This document shows positions 2,482 through 37,818 of a stretch of DNA of 64,000 bases, piece after piece. Position numbers and translations under genes: made by a program. Within the stretch, counting starts at the first letter, position 1, and each line of letters begins with the position of its first letter. The notes below the pieces were generated by a model. That model was not told the DNA's origin, did not search any database, and saw only the letters and a list, made by a program, of their open reading frames with translations. The DNA is taken from positions 1-64,000 of the forward strand of contig PVWD01000003.1 of assembly GCA_003003615.1 (NCBI GenBank). Reading direction: 5' to 3'. Origin of the DNA: a filamentous cyanobacterium CCP2 (GTDB lineage Bacteria; Cyanobacteriota; Cyanobacteriia; Elainellales; Elainellaceae).

Positions 2482-5400
2482 TCAATCGCATTCTTGACTT
2501 AATACGATTCGCCCGTCTCCTAACTGATACATTCCCTGTGGCTCCACGATCGGATCACCAATTTGCCAGGAGGTTTCGCTACTGTCTGGAATCGATCGTA
2601 CTTCTCCAGTGGTATAGGATGTCGATCTATTTTCACCTGGACGTTCTGGCAAACCTCCTCTACCAGTGACAATAAACGTCCCTCCTGCCTCCTGGCTTCG
2701 TACTACACAGCTTGCAGCAATTAATCCTTCCGTGTCAATCGCAGTTTCCGGTAAGTCTGCTAAACTATCCCGCACAAAGCTGGTATCCGGTGTGGAAATT
2801 GTACCTGAGCTAAAATCACCCCTAGCATTCACATCAACGCGATCGTTTCCGTCCAACGTGTCTGGATCAGCATCAGCAGAATCTAATTGGAATCCTTCTC
2901 CAAAGAAAACTGGAGTCTCTAGCGTAATATCTCCACCAATCTGTCCAGCCGCCGCAATAATGTCGCTATCTCCAAACGCCAGAATGGAATCGGCATTGAG
3001 AAAGATGCTCCCCCCTTGTTGTCCGGCGGTAGCGATGATGTCGCTGTTATCAAAGGTGCGAATGGAATTGGCGCGAAAGTTTATATTGCCGCCATCCACT
3101 GCGCTGTCGGTGGTAATGTTGGTGTTTCCTAATAGGCGAATATCGCTAGCTACAAGGCGAATATCACCGCCAGAAGCATTCTCCGCCGAGGTGGTGACAT
3201 CACTATTGCTTGCAGAAAAGGTATTTCCAGCAGTGAGCTGAATATTTCCTGCTTCGGCATTTTCTCCTTGACTGCGGGTGGAAATGGTCGAACGATCGCG
3301 CAGTGTTACATTTCCTTCTGCATCAATGCGGATGTTTCCTGCTTCGGCATTTTCTCCCTGGCTCTCGGTCGAAATCCTAGCCCGGTTGTCGAGGCGGACA
3401 TCTCCCCTCGCTTGGATGGTGACACCACCTGCGGCCCCGCCTCCCTGACTTTGGGCAGAAATTCTGGCGCGATCGGTTAGCTGTAAATTTGTTGTGTCCA
3501 GCGTGATACTGCCGCCTCTGCCGATGGAGTTGGAGAGTGTGTTGGCAAACAATCCACTACCAGACCCATCGATCGCCACTGAATCCTGCACATTCAGGGT
3601 AATGCTACCTGCCTGTTGATTACTGGCGGTTGAGGGGGTGATAAGTCCACCCCCCGTTAAAGCGACTTGATTAGCATCAACGCTGATCTCCCCTGCCTGT
3701 CCTTGCCCGGTGGTGCTGGCAGTAATGCGCGATCGGTTTCCGTCAATGCTGAGCTGACTCGAATTTAACGAAATATTGCCTCCCCGTCCGATCGCATTTG
3801 CGCCGCCGACTTCGGTAGAAATTTCACTTCCCGATAGAAGCGATATTTGGTTTGCACCTTCAATAAAGATATTTCCGGCTCGACCTATGCCAAATGTGGC
3901 GGCAGAAATTTGCGATCGGTTGTTTAAGTTAAGTGATCCAGTACGGAGGGTGATGTCTCCACCTTGTCCGATCGCATTTGGGTTGACCGACGTGGAAATG
4001 GTGGCGCGATCGAGGTTGATGGTGTTGGCACGAATAGAAATGTTTCCTGCTGAAGCTTGCCCAAAGGTACTTGCTGATATTTGTCCAGTATCAGAGATTT
4101 GTAGATTTCCCGTTTGAATGTCAATATTTCCGCCTTGACCTGCATCTCCTAGAATAAAGGGAATCGTTGTAGCAACAATTCCAGTTGGTATCCCCTCTAC
4201 AGGTGACCGGCCACTGATGTCGATCGAATCTGTAGCGCGAATGCGAATCTCCCCAGCATCTACTTGTCCAAAAGTTCCTGCAAAAATTTGTCCACCATCC
4301 TGTAAGCGCAAGCGTCGTGTAGTAATTTGAATGTTTGCAGGTTGACCAGTTGTAAAGGGTCCAGAAGACGCATTAATCAGAGTCGTATTCGTGCTATTTC
4401 CCCTCACATCAATAGAATCTGTTGCATTAATCTGAATGCTACCTGCTGTTCCGGTTCCAAAATTTTGAGCTAAAACACCCGCTCCATCTCGTAATCTTAA
4501 GCGTCCTGTATTGATGGTCAAATTGCCTGTGTTTCCAGTCGCATCTAGTTCTGCCGCAACTGAAATAGCTGAAGGACTATTTCCACTCAAGGTTCTACCG
4601 ATCAATTCAACTGAATCAGAGGCATTGACAACCACACTACCTGCATTGCCAGTACTATTCGATCTGGCAGAGGATGTGACAAAACCTCCATCACGAGCAA
4701 TCAGTTGTCCTGTAAAGATAGTGACGTTACCAGCATCTCCAGAGGCATCGCGTTCAACTCCGGCATTAATGCTACTAGAGAAAGTCTGATTGGGAGATCC
4801 TCCAGCCACTTCAATCCAGTCAGAAGCATTGATAAAAATATCTCCTCCGTCACCACTTCCACTTGTTTCTGCCGAAATTGTCCCTCCATCACGGATGCTG
4901 AGTCTTCTAGTTGTCAATCGAAGATTTCCAGCATTACCTGTGCTGCGAGTTTGGGCATATAAACCACTGGCATCTGAAACATCACCCTCTTGTGTGATTG
5001 GAGATGCTCCAACAATTTCGACAGACTCTGTCGCATCAACAGTCAGATTACCACTGCTACCTGTACTACCTTCCAGTGCATCAACTAATACGAAGGAACC
5101 ATCCTGTATGATCAAACGATTCGTATTGATCGAGATGTTTCCCGCGTCTCCATCGGTCGTTGTAGTTGAAAGCACTCCTCCTGCGTTCCGCAACCAAGTC
5201 TGCCCTGCATTGATGTCAATATCCCCTGCTTCTCCGCTTCCCAGCGTCCGAGCATTGAGTCGAGCACTATCAGTGATGATTAAAGTACCTTGAATATTAG
5301 CTGTGATGCCTCCCGCATTTCCTTGCCCGACATTCAAACTATCTTGACTGCGATTAACTGAAGTTGATACTTCCGCTCGGTCAGATAACGTGAGCGAGTT

Positions 5401-7500
5401 TGCATTAATAGTAATATTTCCGCCATCACCGCGCCCTACAGAGGTAACTTCACTGAGAATGATTGTGTTACGACCATTTAATATGACACCACCTGTTGCG
5501 TTCACAAAAATATCTCCTGCATTACCTTGTCCGGCTGTGAAAGTATTTACCTGCGCGCTGTTAGACATCGAGAGTGAACCAACATTAATATCGATCGTCC
5601 CGGAGGCTCCTGTAGCTCCTGCATCTAAGGTGCTTCTAACTTGAGCGAAATCAGTAATTGTTAGTGTTCCGGCTGAAATATTAATATTTCCGGCTTGCCC
5701 AGAAGCCTCTGCATCAATTGCGCTGAAAATTCCGCCCGGAGCAAGTAATCGTCCTCCCCTATCTCTATCTGAAATAGTGACATCGCCACGAACACGCACT
5801 GTAATATCTCCTGCATTTCCCTGACCCGCAGGAAAATCAGCAAAGGCTGAGCGAACTATCGTCTGAAGTTGTGAGCGATCGGAGATAGACAATGAACCTG
5901 CTTCAACTTCAATAGTGCCCCCATCTCCAACTCCGCCAAAATTAACTGCACTGAAGATTCCGGAGCCTTGGGTCAGTGTGACCGAATCTCTTGCCCTAAT
6001 GTGAACGCTTCCAGCATTACCTCTACCAAAGGTGCTGGCACTGATTTGAGAACCCGTAAGAAACAGAGACCCAGTTTCGATCGTGATGTTTCCTCCAACC
6101 CCCCTTCCACCAGGTTCTATACGATTGAAGATGGCATTAGTGAATCTGGGGTTATCCGGGTCTGCGGATCCAGTGAGTCTGACGAAATCCGTTGCTCGAA
6201 TGATGATATCTCCCGCTGTCCCTTGCCCTAAAATCCCACTCAGGATTTGAGAATCTCCACTCAGTATTAGCGATCGAGCATTGATTGATATGCCACCGCT
6301 ATTGCCCACTGCATCTCGCTCACCCGAATTCAAGACAAAACTGCCTGAGTCGATCCGTACATCACCTTCAGTTTGGATAGTAAGGAGTCCTGCATTACCC
6401 TCACCAAAAGTGCTTGCATCTAACTGGCTTCCGTTAAGGGATAGTGAATCTGAACGGATATCGATGTTTCCGCCATGACCACTACCTCCAGATCCAACGT
6501 TGTTTGAGATACTACTAACAGCACTCAACGTTACTTGTCCAGTTGCATCTAGCAAAACGTTTCCTGCCTGACCCTGTAAAGAACCTTGACCTGGCAAAAT
6601 CCCAGCACGCAGCAAACTTGCATCATCTAGCGCAATTGATTGGGCAATTACAGCAATATCTCCACCGCTTTCAAATGTTCTGGTATCCAGTCTTGCTGAA
6701 TCAGTGAAAGTGACATCGCCACGTCTAATTTCTGTTGGAAAAACAAGACTACCATCTGCACTCAATCCGATCGCTCCTATGCCGTTGACAGCACCAATAT
6801 CAATCCGTCCCCCAAATGCATTCAGCCTACCTCCCTCAATGCTAATATCACCTCCCAATAGAGTTAGATTCTCTCCTGGCGGCACAAACAGACCATTAAT
6901 GCCCAGAGTAGGAAAGATTGGAGTATTGGACTGTACCGTGATATTTCCCGTTGATACCTGGTTAAAAAAGAATGCAGAGGGATTCACCGTCAATAACTGC
7001 GAAGGCACATCGGGATCGATCGCACTAAACACCCCCTGATTGCCAAATCCGATCGCATCTGCGGTGGTTGCCACAAAAGAACCTTGTACATCTAATCGAG
7101 CATTTGGGCCAAACACAATGCCGTTTGGATTCATCAAAAATAGATTGGCATCACCACCAAATACCCCCAACGTACCGAGAATGACCGATGGATTATTTCC
7201 CGTTATGCGACTGAGAATATTTTCAATCCCGACTGGATTGAGAAAATATACACTTCCACCATTGTCTACGCCGAATTCCTGGAAGCTGTGAAACAGATTG
7301 GCTCCGCGTGTGGCTCCACCGAGAATCCCAAAATTTCCTTCACCGCCAACCACTTGCGATCGCTCCGCACCCAGCGAATCATCCGGCACAGGTTGCGCCA
7401 CTGCCGACCAGGAAAAACTCGCTTCCCACATCCCAACTCCAGCCAGCGTCACCACACCAAGCAATCCCAGGGGATATAACCAATCGCGCCACCACTGCAT
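2482..7500 (-). CDS. Filamentous haemagglutinin-type TpsA exoprotein
   Basis: This is a 1672-aa protein starting at ATG 7500 with GAGG eight bases upstream. A basic, hydrophobic leader (about residues 1-36, ending SWSAVAQP) is followed by the TPS secretion domain (about residues 45-200). That domain has the hallmark motifs NPVGIENIL, GTLGVFGGDANLF and NPNGIVFGP of the haemagglutination-activity family. The rest is a long series of degenerate Gly/Asn/Ile-rich repeats (recurring GNAGNI, LTDxA and GGxITI units), predicted to fold as a right-handed beta-helix. A short C-terminal segment contains two cysteines (AASCVV and SQECD). TpsA proteins cross the outer membrane through a TpsB (FhaC/ShlB) pore; no tpsB is in the window. 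The next genes (CHAT, DUF928, CHASE2) are frequent companions of TpsA in cyanobacteria. Likely a surface adhesin. Confidence 0.93.
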   Translation of the reverse strand: MQWWRDWLYPLGLLGVVTLAGVGMWEASFSWSAVAQPVPDDSLGAERSQVVGGEGNFGILGGATRGANLFHSFQEFGVDNGGSVYFLNPVGIENILSRITGNNPSVILGTLGVFGGDANLFLMNPNGIVFGPNARLDVQGSFVATTADAIGFGNQGVFSAIDPDVPSQLLTVNPSAFFFNQVSTGNITVQSNTPIFPTLGINGLFVPPGENLTLLGGDISIEGGRLNAFGGRIDIGAVNGIGAIGLSADGSLVFPTEIRRGDVTFTDSARLDTRTFESGGDIAVIAQSIALDDASLLRAGILPGQGSLQGQAGNVLLDATGQVTLSAVSSISNNVGSGGSGHGGNIDIRSDSLSLNGSQLDASTFGEGNAGLLTIQTEGDVRIDSGSFVLNSGERDAVGNSGGISINARSLILSGDSQILSGILGQGTAGDIIIRATDFVRLTGSADPDNPRFTNAIFNRIEPGGRGVGGNITIETGSLFLTGSQISASTFGRGNAGSVHIRARDSVTLTQGSGIFSAVNFGGVGDGGTIEVEAGSLSISDRSQLQTIVRSAFADFPAGQGNAGDITVRVRGDVTISDRDRGGRLLAPGGIFSAIDAEASGQAGNINISAGTLTITDFAQVRSTLDAGATGASGTIDINVGSLSMSNSAQVNTFTAGQGNAGDIFVNATGGVILNGRNTIILSEVTSVGRGDGGNITINANSLTLSDRAEVSTSVNRSQDSLNVGQGNAGGITANIQGTLIITDSARLNARTLGSGEAGDIDINAGQTWLRNAGGVLSTTTTDGDAGNISINTNRLIIQDGSFVLVDALEGSTGSSGNLTVDATESVEIVGASPITQEGDVSDASGLYAQTRSTGNAGNLRLTTRRLSIRDGGTISAETSGSGDGGDIFINASDWIEVAGGSPNQTFSSSINAGVERDASGDAGNVTIFTGQLIARDGGFVTSSARSNSTGNAGSVVVNASDSVELIGRTLSGNSPSAISVAAELDATGNTGNLTINTGRLRLRDGAGVLAQNFGTGTAGSIQINATDSIDVRGNSTNTTLINASSGPFTTGQPANIQITTRRLRLQDGGQIFAGTFGQVDAGEIRIRATDSIDISGRSPVEGIPTGIVATTIPFILGDAGQGGNIDIQTGNLQISDTGQISASTFGQASAGNISIRANTINLDRATISTSVNPNAIGQGGDITLRTGSLNLNNRSQISAATFGIGRAGNIFIEGANQISLLSGSEISTEVGGANAIGRGGNISLNSSQLSIDGNRSRITASTTGQGQAGEISVDANQVALTGGGLITPSTASNQQAGSITLNVQDSVAIDGSGSGLFANTLSNSIGRGGSITLDTTNLQLTDRARISAQSQGGGAAGGVTIQARGDVRLDNRARISTESQGENAEAGNIRIDAEGNVTLRDRSTISTRSQGENAEAGNIQLTAGNTFSASNSDVTTSAENASGGDIRLVASDIRLLGNTNITTDSAVDGGNINFRANSIRTFDNSDIIATAGQQGGSIFLNADSILAFGDSDIIAAAGQIGGDITLETPVFFGEGFQLDSADADPDTLDGNDRVDVNARGDFSSGTISTPDTSFVRDSLADLPETAIDTEGLIAASCVVRSQEAGGTFIVTGRGGLPERPGENRSTSYTTGEVRSIPDSSETSWQIGDPIVEPQGMYQLGDGRIVLSQECD

Positions 7501-26823: not shown

Positions 26824-28011
26824 TTATTCCTGGCTCATTCCTCGTTTTGCTCGTTTGGCATAGACTTTCACCGTTTCATACGGCATCTGCAAATCTTCTG
26901 CGATCGTCTTTAAGGATTCTCCAAATTCGCGTCGGGCTTGAATCGTCGCCAAGGTTTCTGCAATCTGACTGGCCCGATCGCCCCCTGTGCGATACCGTTG
27001 GGCAATAAACAATTCTGTTAACTCCGCAATGCGATCGAGCAGAATCGTTTGTAGCGCAGGAGGAGATTGCAATTCAGATAATGTCCATCCCAAACGGGTT
27101 TGCCCCAAACCAAAGGTTGTTTTATGTCCTGTGCCGCAATAGGGAGCCAGATGCACCAGCGCAAACAATAATTGCTCATACTCATCATCTCGCGGTGCCT
27201 TCGCTGACAGTTCCAGTTCGATCGCCCCTGTAAACGCCGTTACTGTACCCTTTTTCCCGGACAACACCCGCGTTGATTCCAGCCGATGCCGCACAATCAC
27301 GATCGATTCATCCACCCATTCCAAAAACTCATCTGGCTCAAACTCAATCCCTGAAAAAACATTCCAGCGGCGCAAGTAACTATGAAATACATTGAATGGC
27401 ATCGGCAATGGTAAATGTAATCCCCGACGGCGAAAGCTCGTAGGTGACGTGAAGCTGAGTGCGACTCGAAAGCGATCGGGATACTCTGCCTGCCAAAGTT
27501 GTTCATAGGTCATTGGCGGGTGGGTCGTGGTAATTTGACGCACCTGCAACGGGGCATTCCGCAATGCAACCACTTGGGGCGGCTGTTGTAACCATTTTGC
27601 CAACCATTGTGCAATCGGCTTTGATAAAGCGGTGATCGTCCATTGATAAGATTGCCCCGCCTTCAGTTGAAACATCCTGCCGTTGGTTTCTAAGGCTCCT
27701 TCCAGTCCAGAAATGGTAAATGCTTTCTCCGTTTGCCCATCATGCAGTTGAGCAGACAAATCTGGATCGGACTGCCGCACCTGATCGAGAAACCAAGCAT
27801 GAAGCCCGATCGTGTATTGAGCATAGAGGGCACAGGTTTGTAATGGCTCTAACTCCATCGTGACACCAACGAGTTCAGTCTCCGCTGCCCAAGCTGAAGA
27901 GGAACTGAACTGCTGCCGTTTGCGAGGAGATTTGGACGATTGAGCCATGTTGAAGCAGGAGGTTTTGCAATACTGACCGGAGTCCAACAATTCTAGAGCA
28001 TCAACGGTCAT
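26824..28011 (-). CDS. cas6: Cas6-family CRISPR RNA endonuclease, orphan, with C-terminal HTH
   Basis: This is 395 aa from ATG 28011; ATG 27947 is an alternative, and neither has a good ribosome-binding site. It has the duplicated RAMP fold of Cas6: an N-terminal GLHAWFLDQV segment, a central GLHLPLPMPFNVFHSYLRRW, the SGKKGTVTAFTGAIELEL strand, and the glycine-rich loop GTGHKTTFGLGQTRLG. Cas6 cuts pre-crRNA within repeats. Residues ~330-395 add an unusual extension that looks like a helix-turn-helix (SLKTIAEDLQMPYETVKVY). No other cas gene and no CRISPR array is visible. It sits 46 bp behind the large helicase at the end of the conjugation block, so it may process crRNAs in trans or serve the element itself. 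Confidence 0.85.
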   Translation of the reverse strand: MTVDALELLDSGQYCKTSCFNMAQSSKSPRKRQQFSSSSAWAAETELVGVTMELEPLQTCALYAQYTIGLHAWFLDQVRQSDPDLSAQLHDGQTEKAFTISGLEGALETNGRMFQLKAGQSYQWTITALSKPIAQWLAKWLQQPPQVVALRNAPLQVRQITTTHPPMTYEQLWQAEYPDRFRVALSFTSPTSFRRRGLHLPLPMPFNVFHSYLRRWNVFSGIEFEPDEFLEWVDESIVIVRHRLESTRVLSGKKGTVTAFTGAIELELSAKAPRDDEYEQLLFALVHLAPYCGTGHKTTFGLGQTRLGWTLSELQSPPALQTILLDRIAELTELFIAQRYRTGGDRASQIAETLATIQARREFGESLKTIAEDLQMPYETVKVYAKRAKRGMSQE

Positions 28012-28057: not shown

Positions 28058-31000
28058 TTATTCTCCGAGTTCAATGCTCCGTCTATGTTTATCTTGAACA
28101 GGTTGCCGATCGGGCTGTGCTGAGGTGAATGATAATTTGGCGAATCTTTGCTGTTGAGAAAAGTTTTGAAAATCTTGCTGCATGGCAAATCTAGCTGCAT
28201 TCGATAAAAGTTCACCTTGAATCACCTCCCTGGCAACTTCCGTAATTCGTTTCAAATATCTTTCAGTCTTTTCCAAACTCTGTGCTATCACGTACCATCT
28301 CCAAAGGATAGACAGAGTTCGATTTTTCTCTAGTCGAGTTGCCTGTTTTGGGTTTTTATCATAAATTAGCCGATCGTTCCAATCCTTGCCGTAAGCAGGA
28401 GTAACGCGCTTGATCCCTGGCAGAGCTTGAACAACTTGCCATGCCATCAGCTCACCGGCTTGATCCGCATCAAATGCAGCGATAACTTGCCCATCTTGTT
28501 CCAAAATTTGCCTTAATGCTTCAATCGGAATGGTTCCTGCTCCATCCGTAGACAAATAGATTGTCACGTCCTCTATTGCTTGCCGATGCTTCCGATCCAG
28601 AACCGCTAAAGAGAGGGCATCGATCGGAGATTCAGTCAGCAGCACTCGTCTGACTTCTCCCTTGCCTGTGCCAATCCAGAACCACCCCTCCTCACGTGAT
28701 GAACCTGGAACAAGACCATGAAACGAATTGTTTTCTCCCCAAGTTCCCCGTAAGCTGGCTCCGGTTGGCTCTTCTCGATACCAATGAGCACCTGTGTTGT
28801 GAGTGGCGTAGCGGACAAAAACTGCATTCTGCATGTCATCGGCGTAAATTAGACCTCGTTCATGGAGGCGATCGACCAGAGCCGCAGGCAATTTCCGAGT
28901 TTCAACCAAATAATTCCGCACCGCTGCCCAGCGCCGTTCATTGGCAACTGGCATCTCTAATGAACGAGGTTCGTTATCCTCAATCTGAGGTTGCTGTCGA
29001 TGTATATCTGAGTGAGGTGTTATGGATTGCCCAGATAGCCACTGTACCGCTTCCTTGAACTCTACCCCCTGAACATGCATCACGAGGTCGATCGCCCCTC
29101 CCCCTCCCTTATCTGCTATCCAATCCATAAACTTACTACCGCTGATACTGATAATGTGTTCAGCGTTTTTCCACTTGTGATGATCATGTTGATCTTGATC
29201 CAATCCTAAACTCATCGCAACCACTTCCAAATCAAACTCTCGAACTTGATCTGCCAGTTCTTTGAGATTGGATTGTTGAACGGGTTGAAGAGATTGAGAA
29301 ACAGCGGCAGTAGCGAAACTAAGCGTTTCCGAGGGTGAAATAGATACGACCGGAGGTGCTTCTAATGGCTCCTCTAAAGTATCCCAAGAGGGATCATATC
29401 CTTTTGTATCTACCTCATAGTCTGACGCAGCAGTAAACGAATTGAGATCAAACAAACTCAATTCTTCAACTTCAGTAGGCACTTCTTCAGTCTGCGTTGC
29501 TAAATCTTCTTGAGTTGAGGCAGATACACCGAGTGGAATTTGCTCTTGATGTTCTACTTGTTGAAGCTGAGACTGTTGTTGTGAATGAACAGTAATCAAG
29601 TTTTGTTCTTCTACAGTGACAACGGTTAACTCCTGGGTTAACTGTTGAAGATATCGATCGATCGCACGAACTGGAAACCCTGCCAATGGTAATCTTCCAA
29701 CATCTGGATCACCAGAATCTATGCTTGTTCGTACCAGTTCTAACTGATCAGCAATCACCAGAGCATCTTCTGAGTAGGTTTCATAGAATTCACCTGCTTT
29801 GATCAACACCAGAGCATCTGGATAGTTATCTTTTATTTCCAAGTAGTCTTGAAGTTTGAGGTGAAGGGGATTCAGAGTATGTTCATTTCTTGATTCATCC
29901 GGAGCATGGTTTTGCTCACTGAGAGGTTGAGTGGATATCTGAGTTTCATGTTGCGCTTTTCTTGCTGCTTCTGCAAACCCTTGTTCAAGAATATTACGGG
30001 CAAACATTTGAGCAAAGGGACGATCGGCTGCTCGATGTTCTCCGCCTCGAAACGGATCTTGAATTGCTGTTTCCCTAAACTGAAGCTGACCATCCGGTTG
30101 AATCTTGAAAATCATTTCAGAGTCAATAAAGACATCTCCGTTTTGCTCCAGATAATGGGTTAAATACAGTTCGTGATTATGTCGCTCTACAACGAGAGGA
30201 ATGTATGGATCGTTCTCGATACGTAAGTAAAAATCTTCTTCTGCCGTGATCAGTTCTCGTAATCCAGATTCCTCTAAAAATTTAGCAATACGTCTTTCCA
30301 GATTTCCCCTCTGCTCTTTGGAGGAAACAATTCTAAGTTTACCGTTTAGCGATTGTTGCGTTGCTTCAACACCACTGATGTCCTGACTCAAACGGGTAGA
30401 TGTATTCTGATTCATCTGGTTTGGTTCATGAGCATTCGGGATATTATCATTCTGCTGCTCAGACGTAATAGACTCGGTCGTTTCTAGTTCCGGTAACTTT
30501 ATGCCTAGATAATCACGAGCGATGTCTTTGTGGTCAAAAGCAGCTAATGTGTATCCTCGTTGTTTCATGAGGACATTGAGGGTCTGCTCTAGTCGATCGG
30601 CAGGAACAACGGCTTCCATGCGATCGCTCACCGAATGAAAATCGGAACCCACTGCCGCGAGCAGTTGCTCATCTAGGTAGTATCGACCGCCTGATTCTTT
30701 TGCCTTGGGTGTTTGTAGCACAAAGCCATCACCGTTCAGTTGAGCTTTGAGCAGCAGCAATTCATCCAGGGTTTTCACGGCTCCCCGGCGATCGGTTAAC
30801 TCGGTGAGAAATGCTTTAACCTGTTGGGGTTCAGCAAATGCAACGGGTTCTTGTGCCAAACTTTCCTGAATGTCAAACCCCTTCGGCATCATTAACCCTT
30901 GCTGCACCTGCCCTTGATGATCGGTGTAGTTGATTAACTTTCCCTTGGGATACTTCTCAAACGCCTTAATCAGATTGCCCGTAAAAATTTGTCGAGTCAC

Positions 31001-33979
31001 TCGTCCCGCGTCTTGCCGTTGGTCAAACAACGAGTAAATGTCGTTGCCAAACCAATCCCGTTCTTGAGCTTCCACAACGGCTGAACCCTCTCGCCCGGTA
31101 TTGACCTTCGATAGCGGCAGGATGAGTTGCTTGGCTGAGTCAGCCACCAGAATTCGTATCCGCCATCCATTGGGTGCTACAGGATTGCCTGAACGCGCCT
31201 TCGGGTCAATGCCGATGACAACACCATAGAAAATATTGGCACTCGTAGGCGTGACAACTCGCACAGGGGTTCCGGTAGCAAACTCCTGTATGGCTCTCCT
31301 GACTTGAGCGACTTGCTTGTCTAGTTTTTCATTGAATTTGGCAGTCAGTCCTTCATCGTGTTTACGAGCCGCGACTTCTGCTCGATAGTGGTTGGCGGCT
31401 ATTTCCAGGGTTGCGATCGTCTCAGTGGTTTTCTCTTGCGCGATCGCTTCCATTTCATCCCGATGATGGTTGTCCAACTGTTTGACAGGTTCCAGTCCCA
31501 GTTGCTCTCGCAAGGCATTAACAACCTGAAGTTGAGTCAGCGGCTTGGCAGAATTTTTGACATCAACAATTTCTAGATGAACTGCTCCAGCAAACTCGCT
31601 TTGGATGTTGCTGCTATCTGGAATTACCTCCATGCGAGCCACGGTTCGGGCATTCAGGTCAAGCTGATCGGCTTCCAAGATACTTTCGCCCATTGCCCGC
31701 TGTTGCTCCACTAAGTCCCGATACTCGGACTCAATCAGGCTGTAGACCGCTTCTTGCTCGACGATCGGCAGTAATGGAATCCGTCCCGTCACCTTCTTGA
31801 TCAGGGCAATCTCTGACGCATCATTCTCTGCTTTTGCCAGTGGAAAATCGAGCTTCGCATCAAGTTCCAAGTCATCGTTGAGCAACTCAGTCACCACTTG
31901 CTCGCCATAGGGATTCATGAAATCCACCACATTTTGGATGGAAATTCCGCTTTCCCTGGCTGCTGTTGTATTGGCGTTCAGCCCTGCCATCTTCTGACAG
32001 AGAATCGCACCGGGTCGCTTCTCCGCAGGCAGATCGCTCATCAGCAAGGTGTAGCTGGGTAATGCGACTTGTCCAGTGCGGTGAACCCGTCCCAGCATCT
32101 GCATGAATACATTGATGTCCCGTTCCGCCTGAGCCACAATCATATCTCGAGGACGCTGGTCAGCAAAGCGTTCAGAAGCGTGAAGCGAAATTCCCGTTGA
32201 ACCAGAGCAGTTAAGGATGATCACATCCGCATCACCGCTGTTAAACTCAGCAACGGCATTAATTCTGGCGCGTGAGGTGCGATCGGACTCTGGGCGCACT
32301 CGGTAGGTCGTAGAACCATTCGGAGCGTAATCAAGTGCTGCACTCCGTCCAGTTACCTCACAAACCTTGTACCCTTGCTGCTCTAACTGTTGGGTGATGT
32401 AATCAATGGGGCTAATGGGAATTGCACTAAAATCTGCTGCTCGAATGCATTCCAACGCTTCTTCATAGGCAGCAATACCATTCTCGCCCAGTTCTGCATC
32501 CGTTAATCGTTGACGGGTCACTTGCCCTCGATAGTTTTTGATCAAAACATCACGCGAACGTTCCAAGTATCGTTCGAGTAAATTAGAAAACGAGATATCC
32601 ATGAGACTGCCACTTTGAATCTCATTGGCTTCTGCATAAGCTTGAATAAAACTACCCATTGTATTCGCCACTGCAATCACAGGTTTTTGTTCCCGTTGCA
32701 AAGATTGAATCGCTTCCTGTGCCGTTGCTTCTGCTTTCTGAGCCAGAAGTCCTTGCTCAATGCAGTTGTGCATCAACGAGGTGAATAACGTACTTTTTGC
32801 GCCCACCTCTCCGATCGCCCCATCCATCCCAAATGCCTTTGCCTCGGCTTTGAGTTGTTTACTCAGTTCCTTGATTGCCTGTTGCTTTGCCCGGTCAAAA
32901 TCCTTGATGGCTCGTAGTGCGGCTGAGAATTGATCCGCGACTTCGCGATCGACTGGTACAACTTTCGCTTCAAAGCGGATGCCCTCATACGATCGTACCC
33001 GCCTCAGCATCTGCCCAGAAGCAACAAACTTACTGGCGACAATTTGCTGAAGTGGCACTCCCCCTTTATCCAAGATGTTCTCTAACGCCGCCATACTGCT
33101 GACAGCAAACTGTAAATCCGTGCGCCGGGCGTATAAGTCCATCACATCTGGACGCTTGGCATAGGTGGCAGAACTGTAGAACACTCCGGCTGATAGGTCT
33201 ACCAGTTCTCGTACAAATTCAGCGCGATCCGGTGCGCCACCCATGCGCCACCCACTTTGACTCCCTCCGGCTTCATGGGCTTCATCGAGAATCAAGATGG
33301 CGTTGGGGGCGATCGCCCTCAAGAAGTTGCGTCGGAGCGGTTCTTTTTGTCCGACTGTTTGAAGTTGGCTGTAGGTGGTAAACACAGCATTGTAGAAGAT
33401 GCCTAAGTTTTGGGAAACCATCATCTCTCGCATCAGCTGCTCTTGCTGAGTCGCATTGCCTGTCCTCAATTCCTGCCCATTCGACAGTGGAATGATCGCT
33501 TTGGTATCGGTAATGAAGGGCTGAAAGGTGTACATGCCAATATCGACGACATCACGCATCATATCGGCATATAGAGTCTTGTTCTGCGTCACAAACACGG
33601 CAGCTTTACCCTGCTGCTGGGCATAGCGCAAAATGCTGGCACAAATTCTTCCTTTGCCTACACCCGTCTGATCGCCAACAATGAATCCTTTACCCCGCTC
33701 AATGTTGCTGATGGCTAAGGCAGCAGCATCGACCTGTTCTGCACTGAAGTGACGATGCAATTCCTCTACAGAGGCATAACCTAAACGTGAGGTGAGATAG
33801 GTATCAATATCACCGTGTTCCTGCTCGAGCCGATCCAAGGCAGACTGAGCCGCGCTTGCCATGTTGTAAGGAATAAGGGTGCCCGTTGAGGTTCCCTTAC
33901 TTTTCGGTTGATAGGTCACTTGCTTGGGTTGAACCTCAATCTCCGATGGCTCATTGAAGGTTGTTTCAGTTGTTGCCAT
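28058..33979 (-). CDS. Giant SNO-type helicase / MutS-I-like / TOPRIM polyvalent protein
   Basis: From ATG 33979, preceded by GGGAG directly after the stop of the nested gene, this is 1973 aa. Residues ~60-650 form an SF2 helicase of the strawberry-notch type: Walker A GDQTGVGKGR (Lys109), DEAH box at Asp232, and motif VI QMLGRVHRTGQ. Residues ~1370-1450 resemble the MutS N-terminal domain (FYETYSEDALVIADQL and LPLAGFPVRAIDRYL). Near residue ~1600 is a degenerate CHC2-like segment, followed by a TOPRIM domain with TESPIDALSL and FDADQAGE (Asp1837, Asp1839), as in plasmid primases. Such multi-domain proteins of conjugative elements are thought to enter recipients and prepare or protect the incoming DNA. 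The same frame continues upstream without a stop into the methylase. Confidence 0.85.
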   Translation of the reverse strand: MATTETTFNEPSEIEVQPKQVTYQPKSKGTSTGTLIPYNMASAAQSALDRLEQEHGDIDTYLTSRLGYASVEELHRHFSAEQVDAAALAISNIERGKGFIVGDQTGVGKGRICASILRYAQQQGKAAVFVTQNKTLYADMMRDVVDIGMYTFQPFITDTKAIIPLSNGQELRTGNATQQEQLMREMMVSQNLGIFYNAVFTTYSQLQTVGQKEPLRRNFLRAIAPNAILILDEAHEAGGSQSGWRMGGAPDRAEFVRELVDLSAGVFYSSATYAKRPDVMDLYARRTDLQFAVSSMAALENILDKGGVPLQQIVASKFVASGQMLRRVRSYEGIRFEAKVVPVDREVADQFSAALRAIKDFDRAKQQAIKELSKQLKAEAKAFGMDGAIGEVGAKSTLFTSLMHNCIEQGLLAQKAEATAQEAIQSLQREQKPVIAVANTMGSFIQAYAEANEIQSGSLMDISFSNLLERYLERSRDVLIKNYRGQVTRQRLTDAELGENGIAAYEEALECIRAADFSAIPISPIDYITQQLEQQGYKVCEVTGRSAALDYAPNGSTTYRVRPESDRTSRARINAVAEFNSGDADVIILNCSGSTGISLHASERFADQRPRDMIVAQAERDINVFMQMLGRVHRTGQVALPSYTLLMSDLPAEKRPGAILCQKMAGLNANTTAARESGISIQNVVDFMNPYGEQVVTELLNDDLELDAKLDFPLAKAENDASEIALIKKVTGRIPLLPIVEQEAVYSLIESEYRDLVEQQRAMGESILEADQLDLNARTVARMEVIPDSSNIQSEFAGAVHLEIVDVKNSAKPLTQLQVVNALREQLGLEPVKQLDNHHRDEMEAIAQEKTTETIATLEIAANHYRAEVAARKHDEGLTAKFNEKLDKQVAQVRRAIQEFATGTPVRVVTPTSANIFYGVVIGIDPKARSGNPVAPNGWRIRILVADSAKQLILPLSKVNTGREGSAVVEAQERDWFGNDIYSLFDQRQDAGRVTRQIFTGNLIKAFEKYPKGKLINYTDHQGQVQQGLMMPKGFDIQESLAQEPVAFAEPQQVKAFLTELTDRRGAVKTLDELLLLKAQLNGDGFVLQTPKAKESGGRYYLDEQLLAAVGSDFHSVSDRMEAVVPADRLEQTLNVLMKQRGYTLAAFDHKDIARDYLGIKLPELETTESITSEQQNDNIPNAHEPNQMNQNTSTRLSQDISGVEATQQSLNGKLRIVSSKEQRGNLERRIAKFLEESGLRELITAEEDFYLRIENDPYIPLVVERHNHELYLTHYLEQNGDVFIDSEMIFKIQPDGQLQFRETAIQDPFRGGEHRAADRPFAQMFARNILEQGFAEAARKAQHETQISTQPLSEQNHAPDESRNEHTLNPLHLKLQDYLEIKDNYPDALVLIKAGEFYETYSEDALVIADQLELVRTSIDSGDPDVGRLPLAGFPVRAIDRYLQQLTQELTVVTVEEQNLITVHSQQQSQLQQVEHQEQIPLGVSASTQEDLATQTEEVPTEVEELSLFDLNSFTAASDYEVDTKGYDPSWDTLEEPLEAPPVVSISPSETLSFATAAVSQSLQPVQQSNLKELADQVREFDLEVVAMSLGLDQDQHDHHKWKNAEHIISISGSKFMDWIADKGGGGAIDLVMHVQGVEFKEAVQWLSGQSITPHSDIHRQQPQIEDNEPRSLEMPVANERRWAAVRNYLVETRKLPAALVDRLHERGLIYADDMQNAVFVRYATHNTGAHWYREEPTGASLRGTWGENNSFHGLVPGSSREEGWFWIGTGKGEVRRVLLTESPIDALSLAVLDRKHRQAIEDVTIYLSTDGAGTIPIEALRQILEQDGQVIAAFDADQAGELMAWQVVQALPGIKRVTPAYGKDWNDRLIYDKNPKQATRLEKNRTLSILWRWYVIAQSLEKTERYLKRITEVAREVIQGELLSNAARFAMQQDFQNFSQQQRFAKLSFTSAQPDRQPVQDKHRRSIELGE

Positions 33980-35488
33980 TCCACTAAACTCCCTTATGCG
34001 TAAGCGATCAGGTCGTTGAGCCACTCCTCCAGGTGAACCGCCTGATGCAACTCCAGAAAGTCCTGAAACTCTGGATGGTTCTCGGTCATCACGATTGCTG
34101 GAAAGCTCACGCCTAGTCGTCCAATGGTCTGAGTGAAAATCTCGTTGTCGAGGATGAATGTTGTTGCCCAGTCCTGCCGCCATCGCCCCAGAGCGTCTTG
34201 CTCGGTTTCGCTCTCGTCCTGATCGATAACTGGATGTTCCTGATAAGAATGCAGTGCTTCCAGCTTGGAGGTCAGCAGTCTCTGGGTGTCCAACTGGCTG
34301 CTGGGAATCTCCACTATCCAACGCTGAATCATCCATCTCACTCGTTGCTGCATCAGCGTTTTGTAGGTTGTTTCGTCCAAGCTTTCGATCGGGAGTGGCA
34401 CTTTGACCACGAATAGGGAGGGCATCACCGGAGGTGTCCAAATCCTGGGGTAGTCCTCGTACCGAGTCATGACTGAAATCGTGTCTTGAGTTTGATAGAA
34501 AGGAGTTATGAATGGGTTCATTGGGAAGTTGCTCCTTTAGTTCTACAAATGAACGATAAATTTTGGGAACCTCAACTGCCGGAAGCATTCGTTGAGACTG
34601 ACCCCGACCAGCGATAACAATGACATCAATCGGAAAACCTGCTCCTTGCTTGCGGTAGAGATTGCCCCAGATGGAGAAATGCTGTGTCACGTTGTAGTGC
34701 TGGTAGAGCAAATAGAAAAACGCTCTACTTTCTCTGGTGTTGTAGCGATCGGATCGTCGTTCTTCGTCGCTGCCTAACTTGCCCCCCAGAATCAATACGG
34801 CTTGACCATCATCTTTCATAACCTCCAACGCATTGAGGGCAATCACGTGATCGATTTGAGTTGTCCAGGTGTCATACAATGGAAATCGTTTGGTGAGCTG
34901 ATTCTCATCCAGAACTGAACTGAAGGGTGGATTACAGATAACGCAGTCAACCGGTTCTTGAGGACGATACGTCGTGGCATCATGTTGAGTCAGTTGGTAA
35001 TACCCTCGTGTTGTAAGTTCTGCAACGCGATCGCCATTAATTTCATTGGCAACCACTTTGGCGGGATTAGCTGCAATCAACAATGCACCATTTCCTGCGG
35101 TCGGTTCATAGACTGTTGTTTCTGAATGGATGCATGCCAGCATTGTGGCAAGATAGGCAATTGGAATCGGCGTGCTGTATGCCTGCTGAAGCACAGAGGT
35201 AGACGATCGGACACCTAGATTGGGTTGCTGCTCCAGCAAATGAACTAATTGGTCATAGGCTTGGTGAGTCGTTGCAGACTGCTCAACCAGTCGGTGAGCC
35301 GCTCGCACAATGGCTGCTTCCATTGCTTCATCCACCAACTTGGTCAGCGGACTGCCAGAAGGAATTGCTTGGTTCAATACCTTTTCGGCTTCAGCACGAG
35401 CATCCGTAATTCGGGCATAACTTTTTCCTGCAATGAGGTGTTCGAGAAACAACTGCTTGAGTCGTTCTTGGTCATAGTTTGTATTCAC
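28058..35488 (-). CDS. N6-adenine DNA methylase module, open in frame with the helicase
   Basis: GTG 35488 with GAGG six bases upstream is the best start; TTG 35500 overlaps that site. The first ~322 residues form an adenine methyltransferase: SAM motif VYEPTAGNGALL and catalytic NPPF at about 186-189. No stop follows. The frame runs on through the 175-codon nested gene, where it encodes a Ser/Arg/Gly/Asp-rich, shadow-like stretch, and then straight into the helicase, giving a possible 2476-aa fusion. Either a real fusion exists with a disordered linker and an embedded gene, or the methylase ends only formally because its stop was lost. DNA methylation by an element usually protects it from host restriction. 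Confidence 0.7.
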   Translation of the reverse strand: MNTNYDQERLKQLFLEHLIAGKSYARITDARAEAEKVLNQAIPSGSPLTKLVDEAMEAAIVRAAHRLVEQSATTHQAYDQLVHLLEQQPNLGVRSSTSVLQQAYSTPIPIAYLATMLACIHSETTVYEPTAGNGALLIAANPAKVVANEINGDRVAELTTRGYYQLTQHDATTYRPQEPVDCVICNPPFSSVLDENQLTKRFPLYDTWTTQIDHVIALNALEVMKDDGQAVLILGGKLGSDEERRSDRYNTRESRAFFYLLYQHYNVTQHFSIWGNLYRKQGAGFPIDVIVIAGRGQSQRMLPAVEVPKIYRSFVELKEQLPNEPIHNSFLSNSRHDFSHDSVRGLPQDLDTSGDALPIRGQSATPDRKLGRNNLQNADAATSEMDDSALDSGDSQQPVGHPETADLQAGSTAFLSGTSSYRSGRERNRARRSGAMAAGLGNNIHPRQRDFHSDHWTTRRELSSNRDDREPSRVSGLSGVASGGSPGGVAQRPDRLRIREFSGMATTETTFNEPSEIEVQPKQVTYQPKSKGTSTGTLIPYNMASAAQSALDRLEQEHGDIDTYLTSRLGYASVEELHRHFSAEQVDAAALAISNIERGKGFIVGDQTGVGKGRICASILRYAQQQGKAAVFVTQNKTLYADMMRDVVDIGMYTFQPFITDTKAIIPLSNGQELRTGNATQQEQLMREMMVSQNLGIFYNAVFTTYSQLQTVGQKEPLRRNFLRAIAPNAILILDEAHEAGGSQSGWRMGGAPDRAEFVRELVDLSAGVFYSSATYAKRPDVMDLYARRTDLQFAVSSMAALENILDKGGVPLQQIVASKFVASGQMLRRVRSYEGIRFEAKVVPVDREVADQFSAALRAIKDFDRAKQQAIKELSKQLKAEAKAFGMDGAIGEVGAKSTLFTSLMHNCIEQGLLAQKAEATAQEAIQSLQREQKPVIAVANTMGSFIQAYAEANEIQSGSLMDISFSNLLERYLERSRDVLIKNYRGQVTRQRLTDAELGENGIAAYEEALECIRAADFSAIPISPIDYITQQLEQQGYKVCEVTGRSAALDYAPNGSTTYRVRPESDRTSRARINAVAEFNSGDADVIILNCSGSTGISLHASERFADQRPRDMIVAQAERDINVFMQMLGRVHRTGQVALPSYTLLMSDLPAEKRPGAILCQKMAGLNANTTAARESGISIQNVVDFMNPYGEQVVTELLNDDLELDAKLDFPLAKAENDASEIALIKKVTGRIPLLPIVEQEAVYSLIESEYRDLVEQQRAMGESILEADQLDLNARTVARMEVIPDSSNIQSEFAGAVHLEIVDVKNSAKPLTQLQVVNALREQLGLEPVKQLDNHHRDEMEAIAQEKTTETIATLEIAANHYRAEVAARKHDEGLTAKFNEKLDKQVAQVRRAIQEFATGTPVRVVTPTSANIFYGVVIGIDPKARSGNPVAPNGWRIRILVADSAKQLILPLSKVNTGREGSAVVEAQERDWFGNDIYSLFDQRQDAGRVTRQIFTGNLIKAFEKYPKGKLINYTDHQGQVQQGLMMPKGFDIQESLAQEPVAFAEPQQVKAFLTELTDRRGAVKTLDELLLLKAQLNGDGFVLQTPKAKESGGRYYLDEQLLAAVGSDFHSVSDRMEAVVPADRLEQTLNVLMKQRGYTLAAFDHKDIARDYLGIKLPELETTESITSEQQNDNIPNAHEPNQMNQNTSTRLSQDISGVEATQQSLNGKLRIVSSKEQRGNLERRIAKFLEESGLRELITAEEDFYLRIENDPYIPLVVERHNHELYLTHYLEQNGDVFIDSEMIFKIQPDGQLQFRETAIQDPFRGGEHRAADRPFAQMFARNILEQGFAEAARKAQHETQISTQPLSEQNHAPDESRNEHTLNPLHLKLQDYLEIKDNYPDALVLIKAGEFYETYSEDALVIADQLELVRTSIDSGDPDVGRLPLAGFPVRAIDRYLQQLTQELTVVTVEEQNLITVHSQQQSQLQQVEHQEQIPLGVSASTQEDLATQTEEVPTEVEELSLFDLNSFTAASDYEVDTKGYDPSWDTLEEPLEAPPVVSISPSETLSFATAAVSQSLQPVQQSNLKELADQVREFDLEVVAMSLGLDQDQHDHHKWKNAEHIISISGSKFMDWIADKGGGGAIDLVMHVQGVEFKEAVQWLSGQSITPHSDIHRQQPQIEDNEPRSLEMPVANERRWAAVRNYLVETRKLPAALVDRLHERGLIYADDMQNAVFVRYATHNTGAHWYREEPTGASLRGTWGENNSFHGLVPGSSREEGWFWIGTGKGEVRRVLLTESPIDALSLAVLDRKHRQAIEDVTIYLSTDGAGTIPIEALRQILEQDGQVIAAFDADQAGELMAWQVVQALPGIKRVTPAYGKDWNDRLIYDKNPKQATRLEKNRTLSILWRWYVIAQSLEKTERYLKRITEVAREVIQGELLSNAARFAMQQDFQNFSQQQRFAKLSFTSAQPDRQPVQDKHRRSIELGE
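33994..34521 (-). CDS. 175-aa protein nested in another frame between methylase and helicase
   Basis: ATG 34521 has a textbook AAGGAG eight bases upstream, and TAA at 33994-33996 is followed by GGGAG and the helicase ATG 33979. The product has a normal globular composition (for example VVKVPLPIESLDETTY, RWRQDWATTFILDN and WLNDLIAYA), while the overlapping frame is low in hydrophobics. I recognise no domain. Its spacing to both neighbours is what one expects of a true operon gene. It probably works with the methylase or helicase, for instance as a partner in transfer, but that is inference. Confidence 0.75.
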   Translation of the reverse strand: MNPFITPFYQTQDTISVMTRYEDYPRIWTPPVMPSLFVVKVPLPIESLDETTYKTLMQQRVRWMIQRWIVEIPSSQLDTQRLLTSKLEALHSYQEHPVIDQDESETEQDALGRWRQDWATTFILDNEIFTQTIGRLGVSFPAIVMTENHPEFQDFLELHQAVHLEEWLNDLIAYA

Positions 35489-35540
35489 AATGAACCTCAA
35501 ATCGATGATTTAAGGTGTTTACATACTGAAGCTCATAGAT

Positions 35541-35930
35541 CTATTTCAGTTTCGTTTGCAATTCAGCAATCTTGCGATCAACATAGGTCGTGCTTAATTC
35601 GTCTTCTTGCTGTCGCTGTTTAATTTTCTGATACTTCTCAATCGCTTCTGCAGGACGACTAAGCGCGGTTAGAACTTTCGCTTGATTTAGGTAGATGTTG
35701 TGATAAATGCCCAAGCGATCGCGAGGACGCAGTTGTTCTGCCTGGTTGAAGTCAGCTAACGCCTTTTCATACTCACCCTGTTCAGCATATAATTCACCAC
35801 GATACACAAAGTCTTTTGCAGTTGCAGGTGAGTCGAGATCTTCGGGCTTGAGTTCGGGTTGGGTGAGTCCGATGAAGAAAATAATGACTAGGAGTAACCC
35901 GTAACTCCGCAGGATAAGAAAAAAACGCAT
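35541..35930 (-). CDS. Membrane-anchored TPR protein
   Basis: This is 129 aa from ATG 35930, which has a strong GAGGAGG five bases upstream; a longer frame from 36062 overlaps the previous gene and lacks a site. An N-terminal hydrophobic helix (residues ~10-25, YGLLLVIIFFIGL) is followed by about two TPR units (RGELYAEQGEYEKALADFNQ and LTALSRPAEAIEKY). It is the gene before the methylase in the conjugation block. TPRs mediate protein-protein contacts, so an accessory role at the transfer machinery is plausible. Confidence 0.8.
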   Translation of the reverse strand: MRFFLILRSYGLLLVIIFFIGLTQPELKPEDLDSPATAKDFVYRGELYAEQGEYEKALADFNQAEQLRPRDRLGIYHNIYLNQAKVLTALSRPAEAIEKYQKIKQRQQEDELSTTYVDRKIAELQTKLK

Positions 35931-35940
35931 GATCGCCTCC

Positions 35941-37818
35941 TCACTCCAATTCCAATCCAGACGCTTTCTGGCGAGAACGACCTTTTGTTTCTGCTTGGGG
36001 TCGCGGTGAAGCTTGTTGTTCCAATGGTTGCATCTTTGCTGCCAATCGGTCAAAGTGAGCAAAATCTCTTGCGCCTAATTTAGACAAAACTTTACCCTCC
36101 TTGCGCTGAAACACAACACCGCGTCCTTCTTGCTTGTCCGTGATCCGAAGGAATCCGGCTTCACCAATCTCTAGTTTGAATTTCCCTCCTTCTTTATCCC
36201 AAACATTCGCTTGAACTTTCGACTGGAGGAAATGAGTGACGATTTGTTCTACTCGATTTGTCTTGGCATTGTAAGTCGCTTCCACATCCAGATCACCTTG
36301 GGGTGTAAGGGCTCGGTTTTGCTGCATCCCTTGCAATTGTTTGCTCTGGAAGCTGCCTAAGCGCTCGCTCACCGATAGCACCCGAATGGTGTGACGAGAG
36401 ACTCCAGGAATGGGAGACTTGAAAGCTTGAAACCGCATTAGCTCGCCTTTGTCGTCTTTGAGGGTGTAAAGATTCTGCCCTCTAAAATTGACGGTGAACT
36501 CTCCAACTTGGTAAGACCGCTCGCCTGTGCGTTCATATCCTCGATTGAATAAGTCAAGTGCGGCACGGGCCACTTGTTGATGTCGCCAGTTTTCCAGGCG
36601 AGAGGCTAACCATCCCAAACCCTGGCGTACTCCCTGCTGTGTTCCCTGAATCTGTTGTTTCCAGTCTTTAGCAGTCGTTTGCAGCAATTGTTGAGTAGCT
36701 CCGTCCGGCAGTTTTGCGGTTTCTCGCTCCAGGACGGCGATCGCAGGTAGCGTATGACCATTCTGATTTGCCTCTGCCACGTCTACCGTCAGTGAGCCAG
36801 TGTCCTGACCGGGTGATGTACTCTGAATTTGAGTTTTCCTGGCTTCGACCGCATCAACCACATCCGCCGTGTAGGTGAGACTATCCTGGTTCAGTGGAAC
36901 GGTGTTTGTCCAGATTCCGTTGCGTTTGTTTTGTTGAGCATCTAAAATGTCATACTGAATCATGTCCCCATTCAGCACGCCTGCTTCTACCAGAGGACGT
37001 TTTCCATTCTGTTGATCGGTTGGAGCGACAGTCGATCGGGGTTGCAAATCCCGAAAAGTTTCCCAGTCCTGTTGAGTCACGGTATTGACAGTGACCTTGC
37101 CATTACTTGTCACTAAGATCGGTTCATCGTCCCGCTTAATCGTGATGTCGTTCTCCTCTCGCTTGATTTGATATCCTCTGACGGACACTGCATCATAGAT
37201 GGGATGTTCCTCTCTTAGGGGATTGAGCAAGTAATCAGCCGTTTGTGCCACAGTAGTTGCCTGCTCTACAGGAACAATGGGCGGATCAACTTTGGGTGAT
37301 TCTTGCGGAGCTTCGACTTGAGTTGTTGCTTGTGTAGGTTCTGGAGATGGTTTTGGAGATAGTTCTAGAGATGATTTTAGTGGTGCTTGAGATTGCTCCT
37401 CCGTTTTCGTTGGTGTTGCCTGTTGCTCAAGTTGGAACTGAATCGCGTTGACAGAAACCGCTCCATCTCGCTCTTCCCGAAACAAAATGGTGCCGCCATC
37501 TCGAACCTCGATCGCGGGAATCTTGCCTCGGTACTTGGCTAGATCCACTCCTTCGCTAACCGGACGTTGAATTGCGTCGAAAATCGTTCGCATTGTGTTG
37601 GCATCGAGTTCGTTGCGAAATTGACCATTAGCCATCTGTCCATACACCAACCGTCGTCCCATTTGGATGCGGATGGTTTCTGCGGGTTCAGGAGTCGAAG
37701 TCTGCGGTTGATTGAGAAAGGCGACTGCGCCTCGTGTCGCTTGGATAATGGCAGACAGTAATTGAGCTTCGTCTTCTTGAATCGCTTGGGCATCTGCGGG
37801 GTTGATTGTTAACGACAT
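35941..37818 (-). CDS. Conserved-type conjugation block protein, unknown function
   Basis: This is 625 aa from ATG 37818 with AGGAGG upstream. I recognise no enzymatic motif. The first ~130 residues and residues ~200-270 look like small alpha/beta modules (for example RIQMGRRLVYGQMANGQ and YQIKREENDITIKRDDEP), separated by a Pro/Gln/Glu-rich linker (~130-190). The C-terminal half contains WLASRLENWRHQQVARAALDL and repeated strands around basic residues. It ends basic (GRSRQKASG). A DNA-binding or relaxosome-associated role is possible but unsupported; it could be the place of a diverged relaxase, though no histidine triad or catalytic Tyr motif is evident. Confidence 0.7.
   Translation of the reverse strand: MSLTINPADAQAIQEDEAQLLSAIIQATRGAVAFLNQPQTSTPEPAETIRIQMGRRLVYGQMANGQFRNELDANTMRTIFDAIQRPVSEGVDLAKYRGKIPAIEVRDGGTILFREERDGAVSVNAIQFQLEQQATPTKTEEQSQAPLKSSLELSPKPSPEPTQATTQVEAPQESPKVDPPIVPVEQATTVAQTADYLLNPLREEHPIYDAVSVRGYQIKREENDITIKRDDEPILVTSNGKVTVNTVTQQDWETFRDLQPRSTVAPTDQQNGKRPLVEAGVLNGDMIQYDILDAQQNKRNGIWTNTVPLNQDSLTYTADVVDAVEARKTQIQSTSPGQDTGSLTVDVAEANQNGHTLPAIAVLERETAKLPDGATQQLLQTTAKDWKQQIQGTQQGVRQGLGWLASRLENWRHQQVARAALDLFNRGYERTGERSYQVGEFTVNFRGQNLYTLKDDKGELMRFQAFKSPIPGVSRHTIRVLSVSERLGSFQSKQLQGMQQNRALTPQGDLDVEATYNAKTNRVEQIVTHFLQSKVQANVWDKEGGKFKLEIGEAGFLRITDKQEGRGVVFQRKEGKVLSKLGARDFAHFDRLAAKMQPLEQQASPRPQAETKGRSRQKASGLELE

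Follow-up and report, generated by a model that had tools for sequence, protein, structure and literature searches.

A conserved gene very likely nested out of frame in the linker of polyvalent methylase-helicase proteins of plasmids and phages

The DNA linking the methylase and helicase parts of a polyvalent DarB-like protein very likely carries a true, anciently conserved out-of-frame overlapping gene encoding a separate small protein. The locus was found in a window of 64,000 nucleotides (the whole stretch of DNA that was analysed) from an 87.9 kb contig of the filamentous cyanobacterium CCP2. One gene family occurs out of frame in about 120 different loci of plasmids and phages that have diverged deeply, and a copy outside the methylase-helicase dyad provides an internal control. 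The DNA evidence for two coding frames is strong, and we regard this part as very well supported; that both proteins are produced in cells is likely, as an inference made without expression data. Long out-of-frame overlapping genes have seldom been established in bacteria and dsDNA phages, and most of them are young or local.

In the window, the long frame comprises 2480 codons with zero stops, while its start is uncertain (TTG at 35500). The Pfam domain N6_Mtase lies upstream of the nested gene, followed downstream of it by AAA_34, Helicase_C_4, DUF6908, MutS_I, DUF3991, and Toprim (Table 1). Counted against the long frame, the nested one is shifted by +1 (the offset of 979 nt leaves a remainder of 1), and the AAGGAG motif is located 10 nt upstream of its ATG. 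After the nested TAA (33994-33996) come GGGAG and then, in the long frame, an ATG at 33979, with 14 bases between stop and ATG. The hydrophobic fraction is 0.21 for the long-frame linker versus 0.41 for the nested product. A first-pass annotation, made from the sequence alone, had claimed a gene nested out of frame in an uninterrupted long frame, AAGGAG before the nested ATG, GGGAG before the helicase ATG, and a shadow-like composition of the long frame in the overlap. All of these claims held, and only its distance of 15 bases between the nested stop and the helicase ATG was off by one. Genes for a type IV (T4SS) coupling protein, TrbI, and an M23 peptidase are located nearby, and the region is therefore considered a conjugation locus of a cyanobacterial element.

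Table 1. Coordinates of the long frame, the nested gene, and associated signals in the window
Feature	Positions	Strand	Basis
Long frame: N6-adenine methylase, linker, Strawberry-notch helicase, DUF6908, MutS_I, and DUF3991/Toprim (polyvalent methylase-helicase protein)	28058..35500	-	ORF and Pfam
Methylase part of the long frame	34511..35500	-	Pfam; TAGNGAL and NPPF motifs
Nested gene, +1 frame, 175 codons plus TAA, ATG start	33994..34521	-	ORF; new family; predicted compact alpha-rich fold
AAGGAG, Shine-Dalgarno-like, of the nested gene, inside the methylase 3' end	34532..34537	-	sequence
Long-frame linker over the overlap: open, few hydrophobic residues, sequence dictated by the nested gene	33996..34522	-	composition, shuffling, substitutions
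GGGAG ahead of the possible internal helicase start	33989..33993	-	sequence
Possible internal helicase ATG, long frame	33977..33979	-	sequence

At this locus, the nested frame stays open in 0.85% of synonymous shuffles of the long frame, and the long frame stays open in 0.15% of shuffles of the nested frame. Since openness is rare in both directions, the overlap in the window is not due to chance.

A tblastn search with the 175-aa product detected four cyanobacterial plasmids with 28-36% identity, each match lying under a CDS annotated as helicase, and further relatives were obtained from whole-genome searches. Homologues at 24-66% identity keep both frames. All 18 intact cyanobacterial loci with a fused frame have an open methylase-helicase frame together with an ORF of 146-233 aa in the +1 frame at the same place, ranging from Gloeobacter and Chroococcidiopsis to Leptolyngbya and Picosynechococcus. 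Plasmid pAQ6 of Picosynechococcus sp. PCC 7002 has the gene (L032, 2692-3195), and Leptolyngbya sp. NIES-3755 is another host. Gene callers retain just the longer of two frames, which is why the nested gene escaped notice; among the named records checked, it is annotated only in the Gloeobacter plasmid. There, on Gloeobacter morelensis pGMOR1 (L031, 2947-3396), it is listed as a hypothetical protein (WP_230844304.1), and the listed helicase starts inside the long frame. A broken dyad was found in Hydrococcus rivularis NIES-593 scaffold 7 (L060, 4765-5132), where a deletion has eliminated the bulk of the nested gene and left methylase and helicase out of frame with each other; a C-terminal remnant of the nested gene is still readable. 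A +1 ORF of a Thalassospira plasmid (L033) is in the right place but was not significant as a family member (E 0.087), and its openness is expected by chance. Weak matches in the genomes G337, G082, G059, G232, and G141 were taken as chance.

For the survey of phages, IMG/VR was scanned with methylase and helicase alignments, which yielded 157 loci, 118 of them non-redundant. A fused dyad with a linker of ≥150 nt was required, and an ATG-started ORF of ≥80 aa beginning near the methylase end was searched for. The dyad was fused with such a linker in 110 of the 118 loci, and a +1 ORF was present in 106 of these 110, while the same rule gave no +2 ORF (0/110). With a profile of the cyanobacterial proteins, 40 of the 106 phage nested proteins were recovered at E<1e-3; the controls gave 0 hits to reversed sequences, 0 to long-frame linkers, and 1 to shuffled sequences. 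An iterated profile search placed 120 of 128 nested ORFs in one family but none of 253 control ORFs from elsewhere in the same loci. Direct alignment of the cyanobacterial and Bacteroides-phage profiles with hhalign was not significant, so that the relation between these two groups rests on intermediates connected by the iterated profiles. The phage loci used for building the family had been pre-filtered for a stop-free long frame. A scan of all ORFs without this filter detected 150 dyad-embedded members, and in none of them was the long frame interrupted by a stop; the copy outside the dyad was the sole exception. No nested member was detected in P1 DarB or in 10 dyads of proteobacterial plasmids.

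Selection on both frames was analyzed by synonymous shuffling and by substitution patterns. For each cyanobacterial locus, shuffling of nested codons predicts 2-6 long-frame stops, of which 0 are observed, and shuffling in the other direction gives an expectation of about 3-8 nested-frame stops. Across 128 loci, synonymous shuffling puts the expected number of long-frame stops at about 310. In pairwise comparisons, the methylase and helicase flanks change fastest at the third position of long-frame codons. In the overlap, the fastest is instead long-frame position 1 (nested position 3), and long-frame position 3 (nested position 2) turns slow. This switch was found in almost all plasmid pairs and also in the Bacteroides-phage group; two very close pairs (L005/L032 and L049/L050) had too few counts, with position 2 marginally highest. 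In 29 of 29 disjoint phage pairs, overlap position 1 changes at least as often as position 3, and more often by an unrounded test, with the opposite pattern in the flanks. The pooled phage rates at long-frame positions 1/2/3 were 0.33/0.22/0.19 in the overlap, 0.15/0.11/0.47 in the methylase, and 0.18/0.12/0.48 in the helicase. Nested synonymous sites change roughly as often as third positions in the flanks; thus, the long-frame linker seems to be constrained mainly to stay open. Apart from stop avoidance, no sign of amino-acid constraint was seen in the linker, from which we infer that a tether as such is a weak requirement. The criterion for overlapping genes, purifying selection on both frames, is thereby met, for the nested frame by the codon-phase switch and for the long frame by stop avoidance.

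The copy outside the dyad is an intact 159-aa homologue on a chromosome-like contig without methylase-helicase nearby (G395:C61; L064, 6324-6947, minus strand). Its shadow frame contains 6 stops and there is no overlapping long frame. Therefore, the nested protein is maintained here on its own, and its sequence does not by itself explain why the long frame is open at the other loci.

The first-pass annotation had offered two readings: either the methylase has lost its stop, or the fusion is real and the overlapping gene genuine. The second reading is supported by the evidence. The first one failed as a recent accident in this plasmid, which is ruled out because the open frame is common to all intact relatives; far back, the arrangement may still have arisen from an ancestral three-gene operon that lost a stop. 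As for the suggested check of homologues, no embedded one has a methylase stop close to where the nested gene begins (long frame stop-free in 150/150), and the codon-position substitution rates, suggested as another check, follow the nested codon phase in the overlap. Conservation of the long frame without that of the nested frame would have refuted the overlapping gene, and the opposite was found, with nested amino-acid identity exceeding long-frame identity in every pair compared.

Translation signals were counted on representatives at 70% identity. A Shine-Dalgarno-like 4-mer at the right distance precedes 45 of 73 nested starts versus 40 of 569 (7%) control non-frame ATGs in the methylase region, and methionine is the commonest first residue of the nested family (84% of rows). 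For the helicase, a long-frame ATG was searched from -6 to +66 of the nested stop, without counting GTG or TTG starts. Such an ATG was found in all 11 cyanobacterial representatives, often with a Shine-Dalgarno motif, and in 10 of 62 non-cyanobacterial loci versus 411 of 730 (56%) control windows. Because most phage helicases have no nearby ATG, their synthesis probably requires ribosomes to read through the linker. Translation of the fused frame in phages is accordingly likely, with the reservation that it is inferred without expression data and that GTG and TTG starts were not counted. For cyanobacteria, an additional, separate short helicase product is possible.

For the nested protein of the window, AlphaFold2 predicted a model with a mean pLDDT of 85 and a pTM of 0.81 (14 sequences), and for that of a Bacteroides phage one with a pLDDT of 90 and a pTM of 0.85 (7 sequences). 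The order of elements is similar in both predicted models, as compared without superposition: a strand, a short helix, two to three long helices, a short strand, and two C-terminal helices. The most conserved residues are W28, P30, V39, R60, P141, and L164. No match was found in PDB or BFVD, nor in Pfam, NCBIfam, or PHROG; phrog_9962 as the family of the nested protein was rejected as too weak (E 0.003 over 33 residues). Nested products are mostly acidic (69/73, median net charge -10), but the idea of a DNA mimic is weakened by the copy outside the dyad, which has a charge of only -2. The acidity of the nested proteins may therefore be partly a by-product of the overlap.

In a tree of 93 methylase plus helicase sequences rooted at the midpoint, nine dyads without nested gene, from proteobacterial plasmids or related, group apart, and the other 84 hold all 73 with a nested ORF. 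The nested state requires 6 changes on this tree versus 18.4 with shuffled labels; a single gain followed by about five losses could account for the pattern, provided that the midpoint root is correct. In a loss clade comprising Persicobacter and relatives, 5 of 7 members also have split methylase and helicase genes, and in the remaining two the linker measures only about 40 codons. This suggests that the long linker owes its presence to the nested gene. The nested gene is not indispensable, as judged from this clade and from its undetected state in the proteobacterial-plasmid dyads and P1 DarB. As a separate observation, a phage locus without nested gene (L105, IMGVR_UViG_3300006467_001858) carries a cytosine-methyltransferase-like ORF (PPCQSHS) between separated methylase and helicase genes.

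In the reading that we prefer, methylase and helicase would form one polypeptide, the dyad of polyvalent DarB-like proteins, and the linker DNA would double as a +1-frame gene for a distinct small folded protein. Ribosomes starting at the methylase would pass through the linker into the helicase, while others would start at the Shine-Dalgarno motif and ATG buried in the methylase 3' end and produce the nested protein. Selection would preserve the amino acids of the nested protein and would require of the long frame essentially no more than freedom from stops, so that the linker would be an open, probably disordered tether. By inference, the nested protein may be co-expressed with the dyad and act in the same step of DNA entry and anti-restriction. 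That it assists or regulates the DarB-like anti-restriction dyad is a guess from the constant association, which we consider slightly more apt to be wrong than right. A bolder reading falls just short of even odds: the nested gene would be the ancestral third component of a large dyad clade in plasmids and phages of several phyla, representing a new family that binds or controls the dyad at DNA entry, and the linker would exist largely to house a locked-in gene whose separate loss or transfer is impossible.

Of the alternatives, an operon survives best, although we consider it unlikely. Here, methylase, small gene, and helicase would each use their own start, and loss of the methylase stop would have led to read-through without a role. 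In favor of this, the nested gene and the helicase of cyanobacteria each have an ATG with a Shine-Dalgarno-like motif, the coordinates of the nested gene look like a normal operon, and separate methylase and helicase genes occur in a Persicobacter plasmid and some phage relatives. Against it, the embedded members contain no long-frame stop where hundreds would be expected, every one of these members has methylase and helicase in one frame, few non-cyanobacterial helicases have a nearby ATG, and the split relatives lack the nested gene. A methylase-nested fusion made by +1 ribosomal frameshifting without internal start is very unlikely, with the caveat that no systematic search for slippery sites was done. 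It would fit the +1 position of the nested frame, which is open well upstream of the ATG in L005, L031, and L058, but it is opposed by the Shine-Dalgarno enrichment at nested starts, by the prevalence of methionine as first residue, and by a +1 stop just 1-6 codons ahead of the ATG in several loci. Slightly less probable still is a selfish out-of-frame insertion homing into dyad genes like ShiLan, with which the locus shares an open host frame, a low-complexity host translation, and a folded product out of frame (PMC11855218). No match to HNH or other nuclease families was found in Pfam, NCBIfam, or PHROG, the position is identical in all loci, and presence clusters deeply on the dyad tree instead of being patchy among close relatives. 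A non-coding shadow ORF, open by chance or composition, is all but excluded: long GC-rich frames often have open shadows, and openness is not significant singly in some high-GC phage loci, but the codon-phase switch in every disjoint phage pair and the plasmid groups, one family across phyla, the Shine-Dalgarno enrichment, the confident fold prediction, the copy outside the dyad, and the lack of a +2 counterpart all speak against it.

The preferred reading, an overlapping gene within a dyad, can be compared with known systems. The methylase-helicase dyad of DarB-like polyvalent proteins has been proposed to protect incoming DNA, with few polyvalent proteins noted in cyanobacteria (Iyer et al. 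2017, PMC5512222). As in that account, an N6-adenine methylase is fused to a SWI2/SNF2-type (Strawberry-notch-like) helicase with MutS-I and Toprim, on conjugative plasmids and in phages. The defining features are met, namely a methylase with NPP(Y/F) (PF02384; NPPF invariant in the alignment), a C-terminal helicase in the same open frame (PF13872, PF13871), and more polyvalent domains (PF01624, Toprim) in the mobile-element context given by the conjugation genes. In contrast, a term search of that paper found no mention of an overlapping gene, and no description of the nested gene was found in the literature searched, whose scope excluded subscription journals and preprints. The nearest precedent in layout is the ShiLan domain, a hidden out-of-frame HNH endonuclease in a phage methylase (PMC11855218). 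In both, a protein that is folded, by prediction in the case of the nested gene, is encoded out of frame in a methylase gene whose own frame remains open and yields a low-complexity stretch at this point, a loop in the case of ShiLan. However, ShiLan is a sporadic homing HNH element with a GTG start, whereas the nested gene occupies the same site over deep divergence, mostly has an ATG with a Shine-Dalgarno motif, and shows no HNH signature. The embedded spanin genes Rz/Rz1 of lambda (PMC5295617, PMC6139136) are generally known as a small same-strand out-of-frame embedded gene with both products functional. Neither the nested product nor its host gene is related to those of Rz/Rz1, the host is a DNA-modifying fusion, and the range of phages and plasmids is wide; also, the 175-aa product has no cysteine, so that the conserved Cys of an Rz1-like lipoprotein signal is missing.

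If the nested product acts with the DarB-like dyad, an unknown part would be added to a widespread anti-restriction machine. Whatever its function, the loci provide a clean dataset for the co-evolution of two frames, and the disordered linkers of large phage proteins are worth checking for hidden genes.

Some further features of the window were recorded. Directly downstream of the polyvalent protein gene, the conjugation locus contains a gene for a Cas6-type CRISPR endoribonuclease (26824-28011, minus strand; PF10040, PF19308). Two more ORFs on the minus strand, 35541-36062 and 35941-37818, overlap by about 120 bases; possibly, the upstream TTG start of the smaller ORF is just misplaced. At 2482-7500 (minus strand), a 1672-aa exoprotein of the filamentous-haemagglutinin type with a TPS secretion domain (PF05860) is encoded.
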